Part shown: positions 27,294 through 36,432 of the stretch, piece by piece
How the letters are laid out: each line of letters starts with the position of its first letter
Numbering within the stretch: the first letter of the stretch is position 1
DNA from: Planctomycetota bacterium
GTDB lineage: Bacteria > Planctomycetota > UBA8108 > SXIK01
Length of the DNA stretch: 36,432 nt
NCBI GenBank assembly: GCA_016209535.1
Contig: JACQVW010000323.1
Coordinates: 1-36,432, forward strand
Direction of reading: 5' to 3'
Made by a program: the position numbers and the translations under genes
The notes under the pieces: model-generated
Database searches by the model: none
Told to the model about the DNA's origin: nothing
What the model saw: the letters and a program-made list of their open reading frames with translations, nothing else

Positions 27294-27600
27294 GGGGAAC
27301 CGCGAAGGCCATCATGGCACGGGCGCCGCGCAAGCCGCAAGCGCGAGCCGCGCCGTCTCCAGAAGGGCCCGTTCCGGCGGCCACCGCCGGGGATGAAAAC
27401 CGTTCGTTTCCGGACACGCGGACGTTCGAATCCGGACACCTGCGCAGGGTGCACGCGCCATGCTCGGGTACGAAGCTCTCGAACCCCGGGACCCCGCTGA
27501 CATTGCGGCGCTCTCGGCCCGTCGCGCCGCCATGGCATCGCCTTTGCGCCTGAGGGTGGGACGACATGACGGGAACCTATCCTTCCCAGGCCCACGACGC

Positions 27601-28074
27601 GTGAGCCACATTCCCTCCCAGAAGCCCGTCGTCCTGTACGAGGCATCCTGCGAGCGCATCCTGACCGCACGGGGGATCCTTGAGGCGGGCCGCCCCGACT
27701 ACGTGGCCGCCATGTACCTGGCAGGCCTCGCCGTCGAGTGCATCCTTCAGGCGCATGCGCTGCGCAGCGGCGCCCCTCCGGACGCCGGGCACAGCCTCGC
27801 TCGGTGGCTCTCCAGGTGCCCGAGTCGGGTCCGGGAAGGGGTCAAGGGGCAGACCGCGGCCGCATGGAACACCCTGTGCAGATCGTGGGACAACCGCCTT
27901 CGTTACCTCTCACAACACGGCCTCCTCGGCTATCTCAGGCTCAGGGGGTTTGCACGTGGAATCTCGGGGGGGCCCGAGGCTATCATCCGGCGTAACGCCA
28001 AGGTGCTCGTCGCCGCCGCCGAAGCGGTGCACTCGAGAGGAAAATCGCAATGGGAAAGCTTCACAAGAAGGTGA
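27601..28074 (+). CDS. HEPN-like domain protein (copy A)
   Basis: This 157-residue protein is read from GTG 27601. The frame is open back to ATG 27460, but between copies A and B that upstream part is only about a third identical, whereas from GTG on they agree at about 86%, so the later start is preferred. The pattern ASCERILTARGILEAGRPDY, then VAAMYLAGLAVECILQAHAL, 'GHSLARWLSRCPSR' and AWNTLCRSWDNRLRY is that of HEPN proteins (helical bundle, 'YLAGlAvE..Lka', 'H.L', 'W...lRY'). Many HEPN proteins are RNases, toxins or parts of defence systems. RYLSQH is an RX4H-like motif, but whether it is the catalytic one is uncertain. It overlaps the partner gene by 25 bp. Confidence 0.75.
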   Translation: MSHIPSQKPVVLYEASCERILTARGILEAGRPDYVAAMYLAGLAVECILQAHALRSGAPPDAGHSLARWLSRCPSRVREGVKGQTAAAWNTLCRSWDNRLRYLSQHGLLGYLRLRGFARGISGGPEAIIRRNAKVLVAAAEAVHSRGKSQWESFTRR

Positions 28075-28322
28075 TCCGTATCCTCAGGGAGAGCTTCAGG
28101 GACCTCGAGGACGACCTGGAGGATGTTCCAACGACAGGGTGCGTGCTGGGCACCGTCATCAGCCCGGCCTTCGATCGGCTCGACTGCAAGAAGCGGCAAG
28201 AGCGCCTCAAGAAGGTCCTCACGAAGAAGCTCACCGAGGCGGAGTACGCCAAAGTGGGCCCGATCGCCGCGTTGACTCCGCGGGAGACCAACGAGGACGC
28301 CTTGTCCTGGCTTCCGGAGTAG
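28050..28322 (+). CDS. Small HEPN-partner protein (copy A)
   Basis: This 90-residue protein starts at ATG 28050, inside the end of the HEPN-like gene and in another frame. The gene above carries GAGAGGAAA just upstream as ribosome site. It begins MGKLHKKVIRILRESFRDLE, then DDLEDVPTTGCVLGTVISPA, FDRLDCKKRQERLKKVLTKK and LTEAEYAKVGPIAALTPRET. A short beta strand with GTVISPAF followed by a basic helix (RQERLKKVLTKKL) and 'VGPIAALTP' resembles a BolA-like small alpha/beta fold, but this is only a by-eye impression. It could be an antitoxin or RNA-binding partner of the HEPN protein; not a known MNT nucleotidyltransferase partner. Differs from copy B at three positions and in lacking the final Lys. 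Confidence 0.75.
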   Translation: MGKLHKKVIRILRESFRDLEDDLEDVPTTGCVLGTVISPAFDRLDCKKRQERLKKVLTKKLTEAEYAKVGPIAALTPRETNEDALSWLPE

Positions 28323-28404: not shown

Positions 28405-28763
28405 CGTGGAGCACGGGAAAGGCCAGATGCATCTCCGTGCAGGGGCTACCGCGCAGGCCGGGGTGGCACGGGTGCGGCGCAGGTCGCGAGCGCGAGGCGC
28501 GCCGTCTCCAGAAGGGCCGGTTCCGACGGCCAGCGGCGGGGATGAGGGGATGAAAACCGTTCGTTTCCGGACACGCGGACGTCCGGATCCGGTCACTCGC
28601 CCTGGATGGACTCGCTGTGCCTCGGGACGGAGCTCTCGAAGTCCTGGCCCACGCTGAGATTGGAGCCCTCCGAAGCTCTCGCGTTACCGTGGCAACGATT
28701 TTGCGCGTGAGGGTCCTGCCGGCACGCCATGACAGGAACGTAGCCCCACCAGAGCTCCGACGG

Positions 28764-29237
28764 GTGAGCAACATCTCCTCCCAAAACCCTGTCGTCCTGT
28801 ACCACGCGTCCTGCGAGCGGATCGTGACCGCCCGCCGCGTGCTCGGGGCCGATGGCCCCGACTACGTGGCCGCCATGTACCTGGCGGGCCTCGCCGTCGA
28901 GTGCATCCTTCAGGCCCATGCGCTGCGAAGCGGCGCCTCTCCGGACGCCGGGCACAGCCTCGCTCTGTGGCTCTCCAGGTGCCCGAGTCGGGTCCGGGAA
29001 GGGGTCACGGGGCAGACCGCGGCAGAATGGAATACCCTGAGGGCTCTCTGGGACAACCGCCTTCGCTACTTCTCGCGAGGCGGCCTCCTCGGCTATCTCA
29101 GGCTCAGGGGATTTGCCCGTGGCATCTCGGGGGGGCCCGAGGCTATCATTCGGCGTAACGCCAAGGTGCTCGTCGCCGCCGCCGAAGCGGTGCACTCGAG
29201 AGGAAGAGCGCAATGGGAAAGCTTCACAAGAAGGTGA
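28764..29237 (+). CDS. HEPN-like domain protein (copy B)
   Basis: This 157-residue protein is read from GTG 28764, the same start as in copy A. It differs from copy A at about 22 positions, mostly near the N-terminus (VLYHASCERIVTARRVLGAD) and around WDNRLRYFSRGGLLGYLRLR. There the RYLSQH of copy A is RYFSRG, so the His is lost. If that His is catalytic, copy B would be inactive or have another role. The VAAMYLAGLAVECILQAHAL core is unchanged. It overlaps its partner gene by 25 bp, as in copy A. Purely from neighbourhood it may be part of a toxin-antitoxin or defence system. Confidence 0.75.
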   Translation: MSNISSQNPVVLYHASCERIVTARRVLGADGPDYVAAMYLAGLAVECILQAHALRSGASPDAGHSLALWLSRCPSRVREGVTGQTAAEWNTLRALWDNRLRYFSRGGLLGYLRLRGFARGISGGPEAIIRRNAKVLVAAAEAVHSRGRAQWESFTRR

Positions 29238-29488
29238 TCCGCATCCTCAGGGAGAGCTTCAGGGACCTCGAGGACGACCTGGAGGATGTTCCATCGACAG
29301 GGTGCGTGCTGGGCACCGTCATCAGCCCGGCCTTCGATCGGCTGGACTTCAAGGTGCGGCAGGAGCGCCTCAAGAAGGTCCTCACGAAGAAGCTCACCGA
29401 GGCGGAGTACGCCAAAGTGGGCCCCATCGCCGCGTTGACTCCGCGGGAGACCAACGAGGACGCCTTGTCCTGGCTTCCGGAAAAGTAA
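29213..29488 (+). CDS. Small HEPN-partner protein (copy B)
   Basis: This 91-residue protein starts at ATG 29213 and is nearly identical to copy A. Differences are Thr/Ser in VPSTGC, Cys/Phe and Lys/Val in RLDFKVRQER, and a C-terminal extra Lys. Such conservation of the small partner, compared with about 14% divergence of its HEPN-like neighbour, suggests stronger constraint on the partner or recent gene conversion. Function unknown; see copy A for the possible BolA-like fold. Confidence 0.75.
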   Translation: MGKLHKKVIRILRESFRDLEDDLEDVPSTGCVLGTVISPAFDRLDFKVRQERLKKVLTKKLTEAEYAKVGPIAALTPRETNEDALSWLPEK

Positions 29489-31764: not shown

Positions 31765-31802
31765 GGTCCCCCTCCTTCCGGGGAGCCCCGTGGGAAGCGG
31801 GT

Positions 31803-31808
31803 ACTATA
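31803..31808 (-). promoter_or_regulatory. Candidate -10 element (TATAGT)
   Basis: TATAGT on the minus strand lies 39 bp upstream of the TTG start of the radical SAM gene. It is the best AT-rich -10 match in the surrounding GC-rich DNA. The -35 region is not clear. Confidence 0.35.
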
Positions 31809-31809
31809 C

Positions 31810-32564
31810 GTGGGGGAGGGCCCGGCGCCACGAGAAAAACGGCGGCGGGGCGCGCAGCTCCGATAAGGTCTCGACCAGCTCCTGCGCGATGGCTCGCCTC
31901 TCCACGGAGGTCGCTCGATGGGCGTCGAGGGGGTGGATCGGCGGCTCGCCGCTCAGCTTTCGAGGGTCGCGGGCCGGATGTGGCGGCTGCGGTTTCGAGG
32001 CAAGCGGATCCCCACTCTGGCCGAGTTGAGCCAACTGACCGCGGGCGGGGGATGACGCGCAGGGGCGGGAAGGGCAGTGGGGGCCTGTGTACGCGAGCTG
32101 GCGAGGCACCGTTGTGGATACTTCCTTTGCACCGAGGCGCTGCTCGGTATGACGATGGAGTTCGACCACCTGACGGCGCGTCGTCGAGGGAGCCCTCGAA
32201 GTCGTCGTGCGTGCGGGAGAGGGTAGGTAGGTAGGCAGTGGAGGCGTGGGCCTGCGACGCGCAGGAGCTGCTCTTCTCGTGCGTACGCGGTAGGTCCGCT
32301 GGGCTTTCTCATCGGGGGTCGTTAGGTTCGAAGACACACTTCGTGCCGTTCGTCCATTGACCGGTCGTCGGGGGTGGCAGAACCACAAGCCACCAGGTGG
32401 AGCGAGGGGGAGCCGCCCAGGAATGGGAAAGAGGGTGGATGGGCACCGGCCAGTCGGAGAGAATGCGGTCTCGAACTCTCCTCCCGAAGGATCAACAAGG
32501 ATGGCGTGGCAGAAAATGGTCCGTTGTGGAACGGCCCCTCAGGGTCATGCGTGAGGGCTCCACA
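31810..32564. other. Long intergenic region, possible gene debris
   Basis: No convincing gene. On the minus strand, about 31825-31965 reads with coding-like composition (SGEPPIHPLDAHRATSVERR then AIAQELVETLSELRAPPPFF) but lacks a start and is not recognised; it may be the end of a lost gene. A short (GTAG) tandem run lies at 32223-32235. The plus-strand frame of the next gene is open back to 32397 but this leader looks unlike the mature protein. Base composition here is lower in GC than to the left. Confidence 0.4.
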
Positions 32565-35264
32565 ATGGGTCGAGGACGCTGGCGCGACTGGCTCCGGACG
32601 CTAATTCGACGACTCCGCGCGACGCTGTTTCGTGCTCGGGCTCAACCAGCAGAGGTTTCGTCCGAGGAAAGCCGAGGTCCAGCCTGGTCTCAGGTCGCTC
32701 CCAAGGCAGAAGAAACCGCTGGAGAAGGGCCTCTGCCATGCGGACACAGGGGCGTAGCAGGGCACGAATCTTCACCTGCGAACGTGGAGGAGGCTCGCTT
32801 GGTAGCCGGCTTGGATCAGGCGTCGGGGGTATCGCCAGCCGCGGTCTTGGAAGAGCCCCAAGTCCCTACGGGCGAGCTCCTGGCTCCCGCGGCATTGGCT
32901 CCTTCTACTTTCGAGGAGCGGCGTACGGAAGATGTCGCTCCCAAAGACCCTGTCCCAGATGCCAAGGTCGGTTTTCCAGGCCCCGAGACGACTGCCGCGA
33001 CTTCGCTTGCGCCGGACGGGCCGCCCTTGGAGGTCAACGGTGAGGAGACGATTCTCCCTGACGATCGTGCGGCTTCGAGCACCCTCGAAAGGCCCGCGAC
33101 GTTGGAGTCTCCAGGCCCGAAGATCGTCGCGAGGGACACGTGCCCGGTGGCCGAGGCGACCACCGAATCAGCGTATGAGACGTCCAGTCCGTGCTCGCCT
33201 CCCCTGGAGAGTCCCTCCAAACCACTCCTGAGCTTGGACGGTGAGGCCGACGAGACGGGCTCGCTGTCACTCGTGGAGGCAGAGGAATCTGCCACCACGA
33301 CGGCGATCCCAGCGAGGCAAGCCGAGGAGATCCCTGCGCGTGCGCAGCTCAGCGGGGAGCGGGTCCCCCAACCTACCGGATCAGGGGAAAAAGAGAACCC
33401 CCAGAGGAGCGAAAGAGAGCGTTGCGTACGCATCGCGCCCGCGAAGCGCGGCGGCCGGGCACGCGCCCCGGCCAGGCCAACCGGGGTACAGCAGGACCCA
33501 CCTGGCCCTCCCCGCACCGAGCGACGCGCGCGACCTGAGATCGTCTGCGTGCGTGAGGGAATGGCATGGCAAATCAGGCTGGAGATTCCGGAAGAACTGG
33601 CAAACCGCGGATGCGCTGTGCTCCAGCTCTCGAGGGAGTTACGCGAGCACCCGCGGGTTACTGACTCCTATCCGCTGGAGGATCCACTGGGTCCCATCAC
33701 TGTGCAGGTCGCCCCCGACCAGGACGAGCCCCCTTGGGAGATTCGTGCGGAAGAGCCTCGCGTCTTCAAGCTCGTCGGGGCAAGTGGCGAGCGCGGCCGA
33801 AGGATTGCCCGGGCGACATCAGGAACCTTCCTTGCTGTGGTTCCTGCTGGGGCACGGCCCGAGCCCGAGTCCGCCGAATGGCTCCGCGGAGGGCATGAGC
33901 AGGTCAAAGGGGCTTCGGCCAAGGCATACGTCGTGGATCTCGCGGGCGGTCTTCCGGCGGATGTCGTCTTCGTCACGAGCGACGGCCGGCGGCTCAGGGT
34001 CCCCCGTTCTGCGGGGTGCGTAGAGCTCCATGGATCCACAGTCGAAGATCCGCTGACGGAGAGCCTCGGCCCACTATTCATCGGCGAGCCGCCGCGAATG
34101 GAAACGAAAAGCGGCTGCCGCACCGCGACCTTCGTGGTCGTGGACGAAGGTGGCCGGGACCCTCGGGGACGCGCCTGGCGGGCGGACGGTTCCGAGTTCG
34201 AGGCGCTCCGGACCGAGATCGCCACGCGCGGTTGTGGTTGGTTCTCAGTTCGATGCTACGACGAGCAGAACGATCTCATCGAGAGCGTCCCCTTCCGGTT
34301 TTCACGCTCCCTCGAGCGAGTCCTTGTCGAGAACCCGTCCGTTGACGCGGTTCCAGGTCCACGAGGGCACGAGGGGGCTCTCCTTCGCTTTGTCCACGGC
34401 CATGGCTGCCGCATCACTTCGGCGCGCCCCGCTGGCAAACTGCACATTGTGGCAAGTGCCAGGGGCACGGAGACGCTGATTCCTCCCAACCCCGAGTACG
34501 ACGAGACCGAGTGGCACCTCAGGGAGGGCTCGAGTCATGTCACTCTCGCTGTGCGTGTGGAGCGCGTCTGGTGGGCGCTGGTCGATGAGCTCACGCCCGT
34601 GGAGCGATTCCCGTGGAGCGACCAGCCCCTCGACCTGTTGCGCACCGACTTCAAAGCGACCTCTTCCAAGGTTCTATACGTCCGGCTGCCCGGCGAGGGC
34701 TGGAGGGCCGACGTCGGGTTTGAGGCGCAGGGTACGCTGCCCCTCCAGGGCTCGAAGGGCAGCCACGACCGTTCCCTGCCGCTGCGAAACCTCGGAGACC
34801 GGCGCGAGATTGGCGACACACTCGAGGTGGTCCCGCTCCGGCTCTACGTGGTATCCCCCGACACCACGCGGCCCGCAGAGATGCCCGTAGCGCGGATAGC
34901 GGCATCCAGCGAGCCACGGCTCCGGCCGGTCCGCCTTGACACGGCTTCGATCAACCCCGCGCGTGTCGCGACCGCGCTCACGCGTTTGGCGCGGTCGTTT
35001 CGGGGCAGCCAGCGGCGCACGCTCCACCGGTTTCTCCGGGAACGATATGTTCCACCGCGCGGGAGGCGAGGTGCCTCGCAGGGGGACTTTGTGCCGGCCG
35101 CCCTTTGTCTCATCGAGGCCGTTTGCGAGGCTGGAGGTCGGGCCGCGGAGACGCTACCACGGCGGTGGCGGGAGAGAGCGTCTGCGGCGCGCGATGCGTT
35201 TCCCGCGCTGGCGGACGAGGTAAGGCGCTTCTTCGCGCGTGCAAGAGATGATCCAAGGCCATGA
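32565..35264 (+). CDS. Large protein upstream of DEAD/DEAH helicase, DruH-like by context
   Basis: This protein has 899 residues from ATG 32565 (GAGGG about 8 bases upstream). In-frame alternatives are ATG 32547, ATG 32463 and GTG 32397. A basic start (MGRGRWRDWLRTLIRRLRAT) leads into about 270 residues of Glu/Pro/Ser/Ala-rich, low-complexity and probably disordered sequence. From about residue 325 a conserved-looking, beta-rich part begins: RPEIVCVREGMAWQIRLEIP, then YPLEDPLGPITVQVAPDQDE, and SVRCYDEQNDLIESVPFRFS. The C-terminus is helical (VATALTRLARSFRGSQRRTL, then HRFLRERYVPPRG). No catalytic motif is recognised. It overlaps the helicase start by 4 bp (ATGA). A large partner protein directly before a DruE-like helicase is the Druantia type III (DruH-DruE) order; identity as DruH rests on context, not motifs. 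Confidence 0.8.
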   Translation: MGRGRWRDWLRTLIRRLRATLFRARAQPAEVSSEESRGPAWSQVAPKAEETAGEGPLPCGHRGVAGHESSPANVEEARLVAGLDQASGVSPAAVLEEPQVPTGELLAPAALAPSTFEERRTEDVAPKDPVPDAKVGFPGPETTAATSLAPDGPPLEVNGEETILPDDRAASSTLERPATLESPGPKIVARDTCPVAEATTESAYETSSPCSPPLESPSKPLLSLDGEADETGSLSLVEAEESATTTAIPARQAEEIPARAQLSGERVPQPTGSGEKENPQRSERERCVRIAPAKRGGRARAPARPTGVQQDPPGPPRTERRARPEIVCVREGMAWQIRLEIPEELANRGCAVLQLSRELREHPRVTDSYPLEDPLGPITVQVAPDQDEPPWEIRAEEPRVFKLVGASGERGRRIARATSGTFLAVVPAGARPEPESAEWLRGGHEQVKGASAKAYVVDLAGGLPADVVFVTSDGRRLRVPRSAGCVELHGSTVEDPLTESLGPLFIGEPPRMETKSGCRTATFVVVDEGGRDPRGRAWRADGSEFEALRTEIATRGCGWFSVRCYDEQNDLIESVPFRFSRSLERVLVENPSVDAVPGPRGHEGALLRFVHGHGCRITSARPAGKLHIVASARGTETLIPPNPEYDETEWHLREGSSHVTLAVRVERVWWALVDELTPVERFPWSDQPLDLLRTDFKATSSKVLYVRLPGEGWRADVGFEAQGTLPLQGSKGSHDRSLPLRNLGDRREIGDTLEVVPLRLYVVSPDTTRPAEMPVARIAASSEPRLRPVRLDTASINPARVATALTRLARSFRGSQRRTLHRFLRERYVPPRGRRGASQGDFVPAALCLIEAVCEAGGRAAETLPRRWRERASAARDAFPALADEVRRFFARARDDPRP

Positions 35265-36432
35265 AGACCACCGACGAGTTCCCGGGCCCGATCGACCTCG
35301 CGGAAAGGATCGCGGAGCAGTACCGCCGCTACCTGAGGTCGACGTTCCAGTTCAAGGACCTCACTCTCCGGAGTTCTTTCGCTGAAGCTCTCGAGCGCGA
35401 GGGAAGCCTCGTGAACGGCCCCTTCCTTGAGGCCGCGCCGCTCTACCAGCGAGGCCTCGAGTGCCAAGCGCTCCTGCGTGAGCTTCTGGGCAGAGACGTC
35501 GACCCGAGGTTTGTCGATGCCCTGACCCCCATGCGGCGGCTCTACACCCACCAGGAAAAGGCCATACGCCGCGTGCGCGAGGGTCGAAACGTCGTCGTGG
35601 CAACCGGCACTGGAAGCGGCAAGACGGAGGCGTATCTGTACCCGATCCTCCTCGATCTCTACGAACGCCACCGGACGGGGAGGGGATCTCCTGGCGTACG
35701 TGCCCTCGTGCTGTATCCGATGAACGCCCTCGCCGAGGACCAGCGCCAGCGCCTGGGCAGGATTGCCAAGCAACTCGAGGAGCATGGATGCCCGTTCCAC
35801 TTCACATTCGGACGGTATACGGGCGAGACCCCAGAGCACGCCCTGGACCACCGTCGCGAGGCAAAGAGCCATCTCAAGAGCCGTCTGCCCGGCGAGCTCG
35901 TCCTCCGCTCCGAGATGCGTGAGAGCCCTCCCGATATCCTCCTAACGAATTACTCGATGCTCGAGTATCTCCTCCTCCGGCCTGACGACAGCCCGCTTTT
36001 CGATGAAGGCCGTGGCGCCATGTGGCGCTTTGTCGTGCTCGACGAGGCGCACCAGTACCGAGGCACGAAGGGCCTCGAGATGGGGATGCTCTTGAGGCGC
36101 CTCAAAGACCGTTTGCGCCGCGGCGGTCTCACCGAAAGGCTGCGCTGCATCGCCACCAGCGCGTCGCTTGGAGGTCCTGGGGACGGCGGAGCGCTTGCCC
36201 AGTTTGCCACGGAGCTTTTCGATGAGTTGTTTGAGGCCGATGACATTCTCGTCGGCGAACAAGTGCCGTTTCCCCCACCATCTGGTCGCGAGTTGTCGGC
36301 GCAAGCCTACGTCAAGATCTCGCACGCGATCGCATCAACGGACGGAGCTATCCGCGAACGGATCGAGCGCGCTGCCGCCGAACTGGAAGTTGGTCCGATG
36401 CCGTCCCTTGACGACCAGGGCGCTCTTCACCG
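35261..36432 (+). CDS. DEAD/DEAH helicase, DruE-like (3' end outside window)
   Basis: The first 390 codons are visible from ATG 35261; the frame is open at the right edge. N-terminal IAEQYRRYLRSTFQFKDLTL and GPFLEAAPLYQRGLECQALL precede the motor. Q motif: LYTHQEKAIRRVREGRNVVV. Walker A: ATGTGSGKTE with Lys121. Motif Ia: VLYPMNALAEDQRQRLGRIA. Then RYTGETPEH, ILLTNYSMLEYLLLRPDDSP, Walker B DEAH at 261-264 (VVLDEAHQYRGTKGLEMGML) and motif III IATSASLGG. This combination (YRRYL..F.F, LTNYSMLEYLLLRPDDSPLF, DEAHQYRGxKGxEMxMLLRR) is what I associate with large DUF1998-type helicases such as DruE of Druantia, an anti-phage system. DUF1998 itself would be downstream of the window. The gene overlaps the preceding one by 4 bp. 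Confidence 0.88.
   Translation, partial: MKTTDEFPGPIDLAERIAEQYRRYLRSTFQFKDLTLRSSFAEALEREGSLVNGPFLEAAPLYQRGLECQALLRELLGRDVDPRFVDALTPMRRLYTHQEKAIRRVREGRNVVVATGTGSGKTEAYLYPILLDLYERHRTGRGSPGVRALVLYPMNALAEDQRQRLGRIAKQLEEHGCPFHFTFGRYTGETPEHALDHRREAKSHLKSRLPGELVLRSEMRESPPDILLTNYSMLEYLLLRPDDSPLFDEGRGAMWRFVVLDEAHQYRGTKGLEMGMLLRRLKDRLRRGGLTERLRCIATSASLGGPGDGGALAQFATELFDELFEADDILVGEQVPFPPPSGRELSAQAYVKISHAIASTDGAIRERIERAAAELEVGPMPSLDDQGALH

Follow-up and report, generated by a model that had tools for sequence, protein, structure and literature searches.

We analysed a stretch of 36,432 nucleotides from a Planctomycetota bacterium (contig JACQVW010000323.1 of assembly GCA_016209535.1), referred to here as the window. 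The window spans a complete contig (G000:C169, 36432 bases) and at its right end, on the + strand, it carries a gene for a large partner protein followed by a gene for a DEAH helicase. We consider it probable that the two genes form an anti-phage system on the Druantia type III-like branch, in which a modular protein of a new kind serves as the sensor partner. This reading is based on the matches of the helicase to DruE profiles, the pairing of the two genes throughout a helicase clade, the scattered distribution of the pair and the defence neighbours of its relatives. Druantia has been known for years, but in its two-gene form the way of sensing phage is only now being worked out, and a partner with a constant core and replaceable ends lets one ask which part senses phage.

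Completion and family of the helicase

The two genes are coupled by an ATGA overlap (35261-35264, + strand), which confirmed the pair of an 899-residue protein and a DEAD/DEAH helicase proposed in a preliminary description of this DNA. The helicase frame (35261-36432, + strand) is still open at the end of the contig after 390 aa. It carries a Walker A motif (ATGTGSGKT, residues 114-122, 35600-35626), a DEAH box (residues 261-264, 36041-36052) and both the LTNYSMLEYLLLRPDDSP and DEAHQYRGTKG blocks listed in the same description. The last 58 bases of the window (36375-36432) recur exactly as the first 58 bases of contig C10 and have no other occurrence in the assembly. With this exact and unique end overlap C169 and C10 behave as assembly-graph neighbours, and the remainder of the helicase was taken from C10:1-3584 (L006). 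The joined helicase is 1565 aa long, with residues 1-390 in the window, and is collinear over its full length with the helicase of the relative L029 (53% identity). Motif V was located at 988 and motif VI at 1017, and the protein contains six CxxC pairs and a DUF1998 cysteine cluster at 1521-1534, leaving no room for a C-terminal nuclease after DUF1998. DUF1998/MZB (Pfam PF09369) was detected above cut-off at C10:3237-3491. A DUF1998 C-terminus had been foreseen together with a length of 1700-2000 residues; the domain was found on C10, but the protein is slightly shorter than expected. On its motifs and profile matches the helicase is a full-length DruE-like protein ending in DUF1998.

In PADLOC (version 2.0.0) both halves of the helicase scored highest with DruE1 (229 bits for the first part, 362 bits for the remainder), followed by DruE2, DruE3 and DruE4, with DpdJ, BrxH and DrmA far lower. 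In a tree of 43 helicases the window protein fell inside a clade of 20 (Shimodaira-Hasegawa-like approximate likelihood ratio test, 100%). This clade grouped with Klebsiella DruE3 and cyanobacterial Druantia-like helicases, apart from the ARMADA-like and other included DUF1998 helicases. The tree is a quick one in which some references are long-branched, so the exact placement of DruE3 is unsure, and the III-B reference GIH50614.1 lies outside it. Clustering with non-defence helicases, named at the outset as a result that would speak against a Druantia assignment, was not borne out, as the helicase groups on the Druantia side of the tree. The genome holds five places with DUF1998, counting the continuation of the window helicase, and at one of them (L007, G000:C900, 4303-11163) another DUF1998 helicase is followed by a restriction-endonuclease-like gene and a SNF2-type helicase.

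The partner family and its ends

The partner had no family match in PADLOC, Pfam or NCBIfam, in agreement with the earlier suggestion of a partner without a recognised family that may be of a new type. By these searches the partner is a new family, unlisted before. The helicase was used to scan 84,980 species genomes and the 80 best loci were kept. Nearly all of the loci with 52-62% helicase identity (about two dozen) had a partner protein immediately upstream, and a partner core of ~445 residues aligned with residues 376-820 of the 955-aa frame of the window partner (best E 5e-78). A profile of this core detected the partner in every member of the helicase clade whose contig extends far enough upstream, and detected nothing beside the more distant helicases examined among the kept loci. 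The pair recurs in about 25 genomes from at least 10 phyla, archaea included, and recurrence in this many genomes suggests that the pairing is more than chance. The phyla of the clade include Planctomycetota, Bacteroidota, Chloroflexota, Bacillota, Thermodesulfobacteriota, Acidobacteriota, Gemmatimonadota, Latescibacterota, Pseudomonadota, Methanophagales archaea and others, but in the window's own phylum the pair was found in only 2 of 246 sampled genomes, as expected for horizontally moved defence genes. Judged from these genomes, the distribution points to a rare, strictly paired module that spreads horizontally. It is a probable defence family that PADLOC 2.0.0 misses on the partner side, present in at least ten phyla that are almost all uncultured. 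Searches of plasmids and of viral contigs for relatives of the partner found none, and the helicase relatives on viral contigs were distant helicases only, none above ~41% identity.

The partner gene (32565-35264, + strand) encodes 899 aa from the ATG at 32565 or 955 aa from a GTG at 32397. The ATG is the favoured start on sequence grounds because the relatives open directly with a short basic or transmembrane helix. The leader (32565-33521, + strand) consists, as read from its sequence, of a short basic amphipathic helix (MGRGRWRDWLRTLIRRLRATLF) and a long Glu/Pro/Ser-rich linker that is probably disordered. A Glu/Pro/Ser-rich leader had been described before and was confirmed, at ~319 residues ahead of the core. 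The conserved immunoglobulin-like (Ig-like) core follows at 33522-34856 on the + strand, as delimited by alignments, AlphaFold2 and Foldseek. The gene ends in a helical C-terminal module with no family assigned (34863-35261, + strand), which is homologous to the tail of L029 (35-37% identity) and which AlphaFold2 modelled as a helical bundle at a predicted local distance difference test score (pLDDT) of 75.

Across the partner family the core is constant and both ends vary between relatives. The front is a transmembrane helix in L031, L032, L033, L035, L041, L047 and L060 and a short amphipathic basic helix in the window, L029, L030, L042, L046, L048 and L051; the amphipathic-helix fronts continue into long Pro/Glu/Ser-rich or coiled-coil linkers. 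Two Acidobacteriota partners, L049 and L050, have an entire sigma-70 as their front, with regions 2, 3 and 4 (Pfam, E down to 2.5e-25). Among the separate sigma-70 proteins encoded elsewhere in the same genomes, the best match shares 65% identity with this sigma module. Comparing L049 to L050, the ratio of nonsynonymous to synonymous substitution rates was 0.32 for the sigma module, 0.21 for the region 1.2 segment and 0.23 for the Ig core, and this purifying selection on the sigma module argues that it is not accidental read-through. In both proteins (L049:5941-10014 and L050:5767-9993) sigma region 1.2 is placed after region 4 and not ahead of region 2, and this order is kept in both. The back end is uS9 in L031 (E 2.7e-14) and L035 (E 1.9e-10), both by Pfam, and L13e in L060 (E 5e-9, above the Pfam cut-off). 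Matches to L13e in L042, L046, L048 and L051 were just or well below the Pfam cut-off, and the L13e motif is also visible in L049 and L050. C2H2/BED-like zinc fingers form the back end in L037, L047 and L044 and, by pattern, in L032, L038, L041 and L117. In L117 (G137:C766) and L038 a long coiled-coil front ends in an ATPase-like stretch (LFLDEVLVNWD, LILDDPLVNYD); a Structural Maintenance of Chromosomes-like ATPase was considered for both, but Pfam did not confirm it and no claim is made.

The exchange of ends was most evident between close relatives. The helicases of L031 and L037 are 74% identical and the partner cores 50%, while the tails are unrelated (uS9 in one and zinc fingers in the other). 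The helicases of L035 and L060 are 72% identical and the cores 56%, again with unrelated tails (uS9 and L13e). Both tail comparisons scored at or near the level of shuffled sequences. The swapping is judged to be recent because closely related helicases (72-74% identical) are paired with unrelated tails. In these close pairs the partner core (50-56% identical) has diverged faster than the helicase (72-74%) and the tail has been replaced outright, as expected for a sensor.

Two roles are conceivable for the ends, either as heads that bind nucleic acid or as decoys that mimic host machinery under phage attack. That they are nucleic-acid-binding heads, which bring the helicase to particular DNA or RNA structures in place of sensing phage proteins or acting as decoys, is a serious possibility to which we give somewhat short of an even chance. 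Nucleic-acid binding is a known property of zinc fingers, sigma-70 regions 2-4, uS9 and L13e alike. However, the sigma module retains regions 2, 3 and 4 along with region 1.2, which is more than a simple DNA-binding head needs, and a fold search with the end module of the window partner gave no match, with no nucleic-acid-binding fold among the results. It is also possible, though rather doubtful, that the partner is an immune receptor with integrated decoys, in which an Ig-like signalling core carries grafted copies of phage-targeted host machinery (primary sigma factor regions 1.2-4, uS9 or L13e) and a phage protein that binds such a copy would activate the helicase. Plant nucleotide-binding leucine-rich repeat receptors with integrated decoys join a conserved immune core to grafted copies of host proteins. 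The likeness of the partner family to these receptors is one of analogy only, with no homology; if the ends are decoys, the family would be a bacterial parallel to them.

Other large partners were seen beside related helicases. Two further partner families (~1000-1150 aa) occur in Coriobacteriia and Clostridia upstream of sister DruE-like helicases (L052, L053, L056, L057 and L058-L063). Members of these sister families (L052, L058, L061 and also L062) had no convincing match to a PADLOC system family, and profile comparison of the Coriobacteriia and Clostridia partners to the Ig-like core gave no significant match. On a Roseomonas mucosa plasmid (L027:2929-12178) a DruE3-like helicase is accompanied by a 1325-aa partner that matches no PADLOC model.

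The Ig-like core, a possible mechanism and known systems

Structure prediction of the partner, as suggested in the preliminary description, was carried out with AlphaFold2 using 23 sequences and gave an all-beta core, mostly with pLDDT above 85 (mean 84.4 with the tail). The best matches of the core in the PDB using Foldseek were tandem Ig arrays, with low global TM-scores as is usual for flexible beads. The core is thus predicted to consist of Ig-like repeats, with no more specific assignment. A partner profile found no match among PDB sequences, and Foldseek of the core against viral models returned generic Ig repeats only, at low TM-scores.

DruH has three Ig-like domains (residues 257-748) that are proposed sensors of phage proteins and a separate, essential N-terminal patch (63-137), and nuclease activity was observed in the dimer (PMC13192584). 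Alignment of the partner core to six to nine diverse DruH proteins using hhalign covered ~200-400 columns on the DruH Ig-like region (roughly 274-740). The alignments were in register, with E values of 3e-3 to 2e-5 and probabilities of 10-78%, and singly reversed controls gave E values of about 0.3 and probabilities of at most 0.2%. This similarity hints at shared ancestry, and only for the Ig region. The DruH-DruE order first proposed for the locus stood for the helicase, which is DruE-like by PADLOC, but the partner was not DruH by PADLOC or by BLASTP with true DruH, leaving the weak similarity of the Ig region by profile. It is unlikely that the pair is an ordinary Druantia type III in which DruH has diverged beyond recognition. 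The same gene order, size class and gene coupling fit such an origin, as does the weak profile similarity. Against it, none of the 23 partners (window and 22 relatives from many phyla) matched the PADLOC DruH models, in which true DruH scores up to 2466 bits, and the helicase has neither PLD domain and finds its best fit in DruE1. In addition, the similarity is limited to the Ig region (DruH 358-725) and leaves out the essential N-terminal patch of DruH (PMC13192584).

Returning to a Druantia type III-like defence pair, the partner would act as the infection sensor, with its N-terminal helix tethering it at or near the membrane. The long flexible linker would carry the Ig-like core, and the end module would contact the trigger or target. 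Upon infection the Ig-like core, taking the place of DruH, may recruit or release the helicase. The helicase, with its RecA domains, zinc modules and DUF1998 canopy, would then load on single-stranded phage DNA and translocate or unwind, resulting in blocked replication or exposure of phage DNA to host nucleases. A reliance on unwinding, blocking or host nucleases is proposed because the clade helicase has no nuclease domain of its own. We infer each of these steps, namely the membrane contact, the sensing, the partner-helicase contact and the effect on DNA. In known Druantia, DruH is the likely sensor, DruE is a helicase that loads on 3' single-stranded DNA (PMC13192584), and the DruH-DruE interaction is needed for protection (PMC13316683). 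Several observations weigh against the defence pair as drawn here. A clear membrane helix is present in only about seven relatives, and the window partner has a short basic helix. The similarity to DruH is weak, with an hhalign probability of 10-78%, and may reflect no more than the generic Ig fold, a killing or blocking step without a nuclease is guesswork, and the window flanks scanned with PADLOC contained no known defence system.

Compared to known systems, the pair most resembles Druantia type III (DruH-DruE; PADLOC DruH3/DruE3; PMC13192584, PMC13316683), with two co-directional genes, a large partner with an Ig-like region and then a DruE-family DEAH helicase with DUF1998. Unlike type III, the window partner matches no DruH model and has no detected DruH N-terminal domain, the best DruE profile is that of type I, and the helicase is 1565 aa long compared to ~2100 aa for type III DruE (L028). 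The window helicase has the DEAH-type RecA core and C-terminal DUF1998 of Druantia of any type, and lacks the two PLD nuclease domains after DUF1998 that are a III-A trait. Judged by these profiles, membership in Druantia type III proper fails, as there is no DruH match and there are no PLD nucleases. The helicase branch was already noticed as Druantia type III-like or III-B among YprA helicases (PMC12458937). Members of this branch mostly have no nuclease on the helicase, and the window helicase likewise has none and lies on the Druantia side of the tree (which the III-B reference lies outside), but the main text of that paper gives no partner, with no DruH, Ig-like domains or sigma fusions. 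The literature searched, with supplements and most subscription papers outside that search, was found to describe neither the partner nor its Ig-like core nor the sigma-70, uS9 and L13e ends. Druantia type I (DruA-E) shares DruE1, the top PADLOC profile for both helicase halves, but DruA, DruB, DruC and DruD were not found among the scanned neighbours of the window pair. ARMADA types I and II have a related YprA-like helicase (PMC12458937), but the window pair has no adjoining BrxHII-like helicase or PglX-like methylase and no Vsr nuclease domain, and falls on a separate branch of the tree.

It is very unlikely that the helicase serves DNA repair or housekeeping in the manner of YprA/MrfA, with the partner as its accessory. 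The DUF1998 helicases do include the MrfA/YprA repair enzymes (PMC12458937), but the best profiles are DruE, few sampled genomes of the window's phylum carry the pair, its relatives have defence genes around them and, unlike in MrfAB, the clade keeps an Ig-core partner throughout and no MrfB-like gene adjoins the window pair. A decayed or mis-assembled locus is hardly credible, as the helicase is split over two contigs and broken copies occur in relatives but the end overlap is exact and unique, neither reading frame is interrupted and the joined helicase can be aligned with its relatives from one end to the other. In these broken copies the partner is spread over three frames (L045) or the helicase is shortened (L047) or split in two (L036).

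Composition and gene neighbourhoods

The content of guanine and cytosine (GC) was 65-67% in the pair compared to 70-77% across much of the window. The lower GC reported in the preliminary description was therefore real, but the window is about equally low at 10.5-13.5 kb and 27.5-31 kb, and composition was rejected as a sign of an island edge. Directly upstream of the partner (31765-32564) no convincing gene was found in the open reading frames; this agrees with the debris described there before but is a weak argument for an island edge.

The scan of the window pair's flanks covered two copies of a two-gene pair and the gene of a radical SAM protein, as well as a nucleotidyltransferase-like gene downstream on C10. 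The duplicated pair is a tandem duplication (27460-28322 and 28617-29488), with copies that are partly near-identical. It encodes a protein of ~205 aa, whose match to HEPN (E 0.069) did not reach threshold, and a 90-aa protein, with no PADLOC match. For the relatives, 145 flanking open reading frames were compared to PADLOC (E below 1e-15), a descriptive count without a matched background scan. The defence matches were HmaC/DUF499 (twice), ZorB, ZorC, GajB, Cmr3, Csx1, Cas6b, DRT and several candidate defence families; specific signals among them are the genes of Zorya, Gabija and type III CRISPR. The DUF499 NTPase is a recurrent neighbour of Druantia-like systems, lying directly upstream of DruH-DruE on a Rhodobacter plasmid (L147:1-8272) and directly upstream of the Ig-core pair in L041 and L044.

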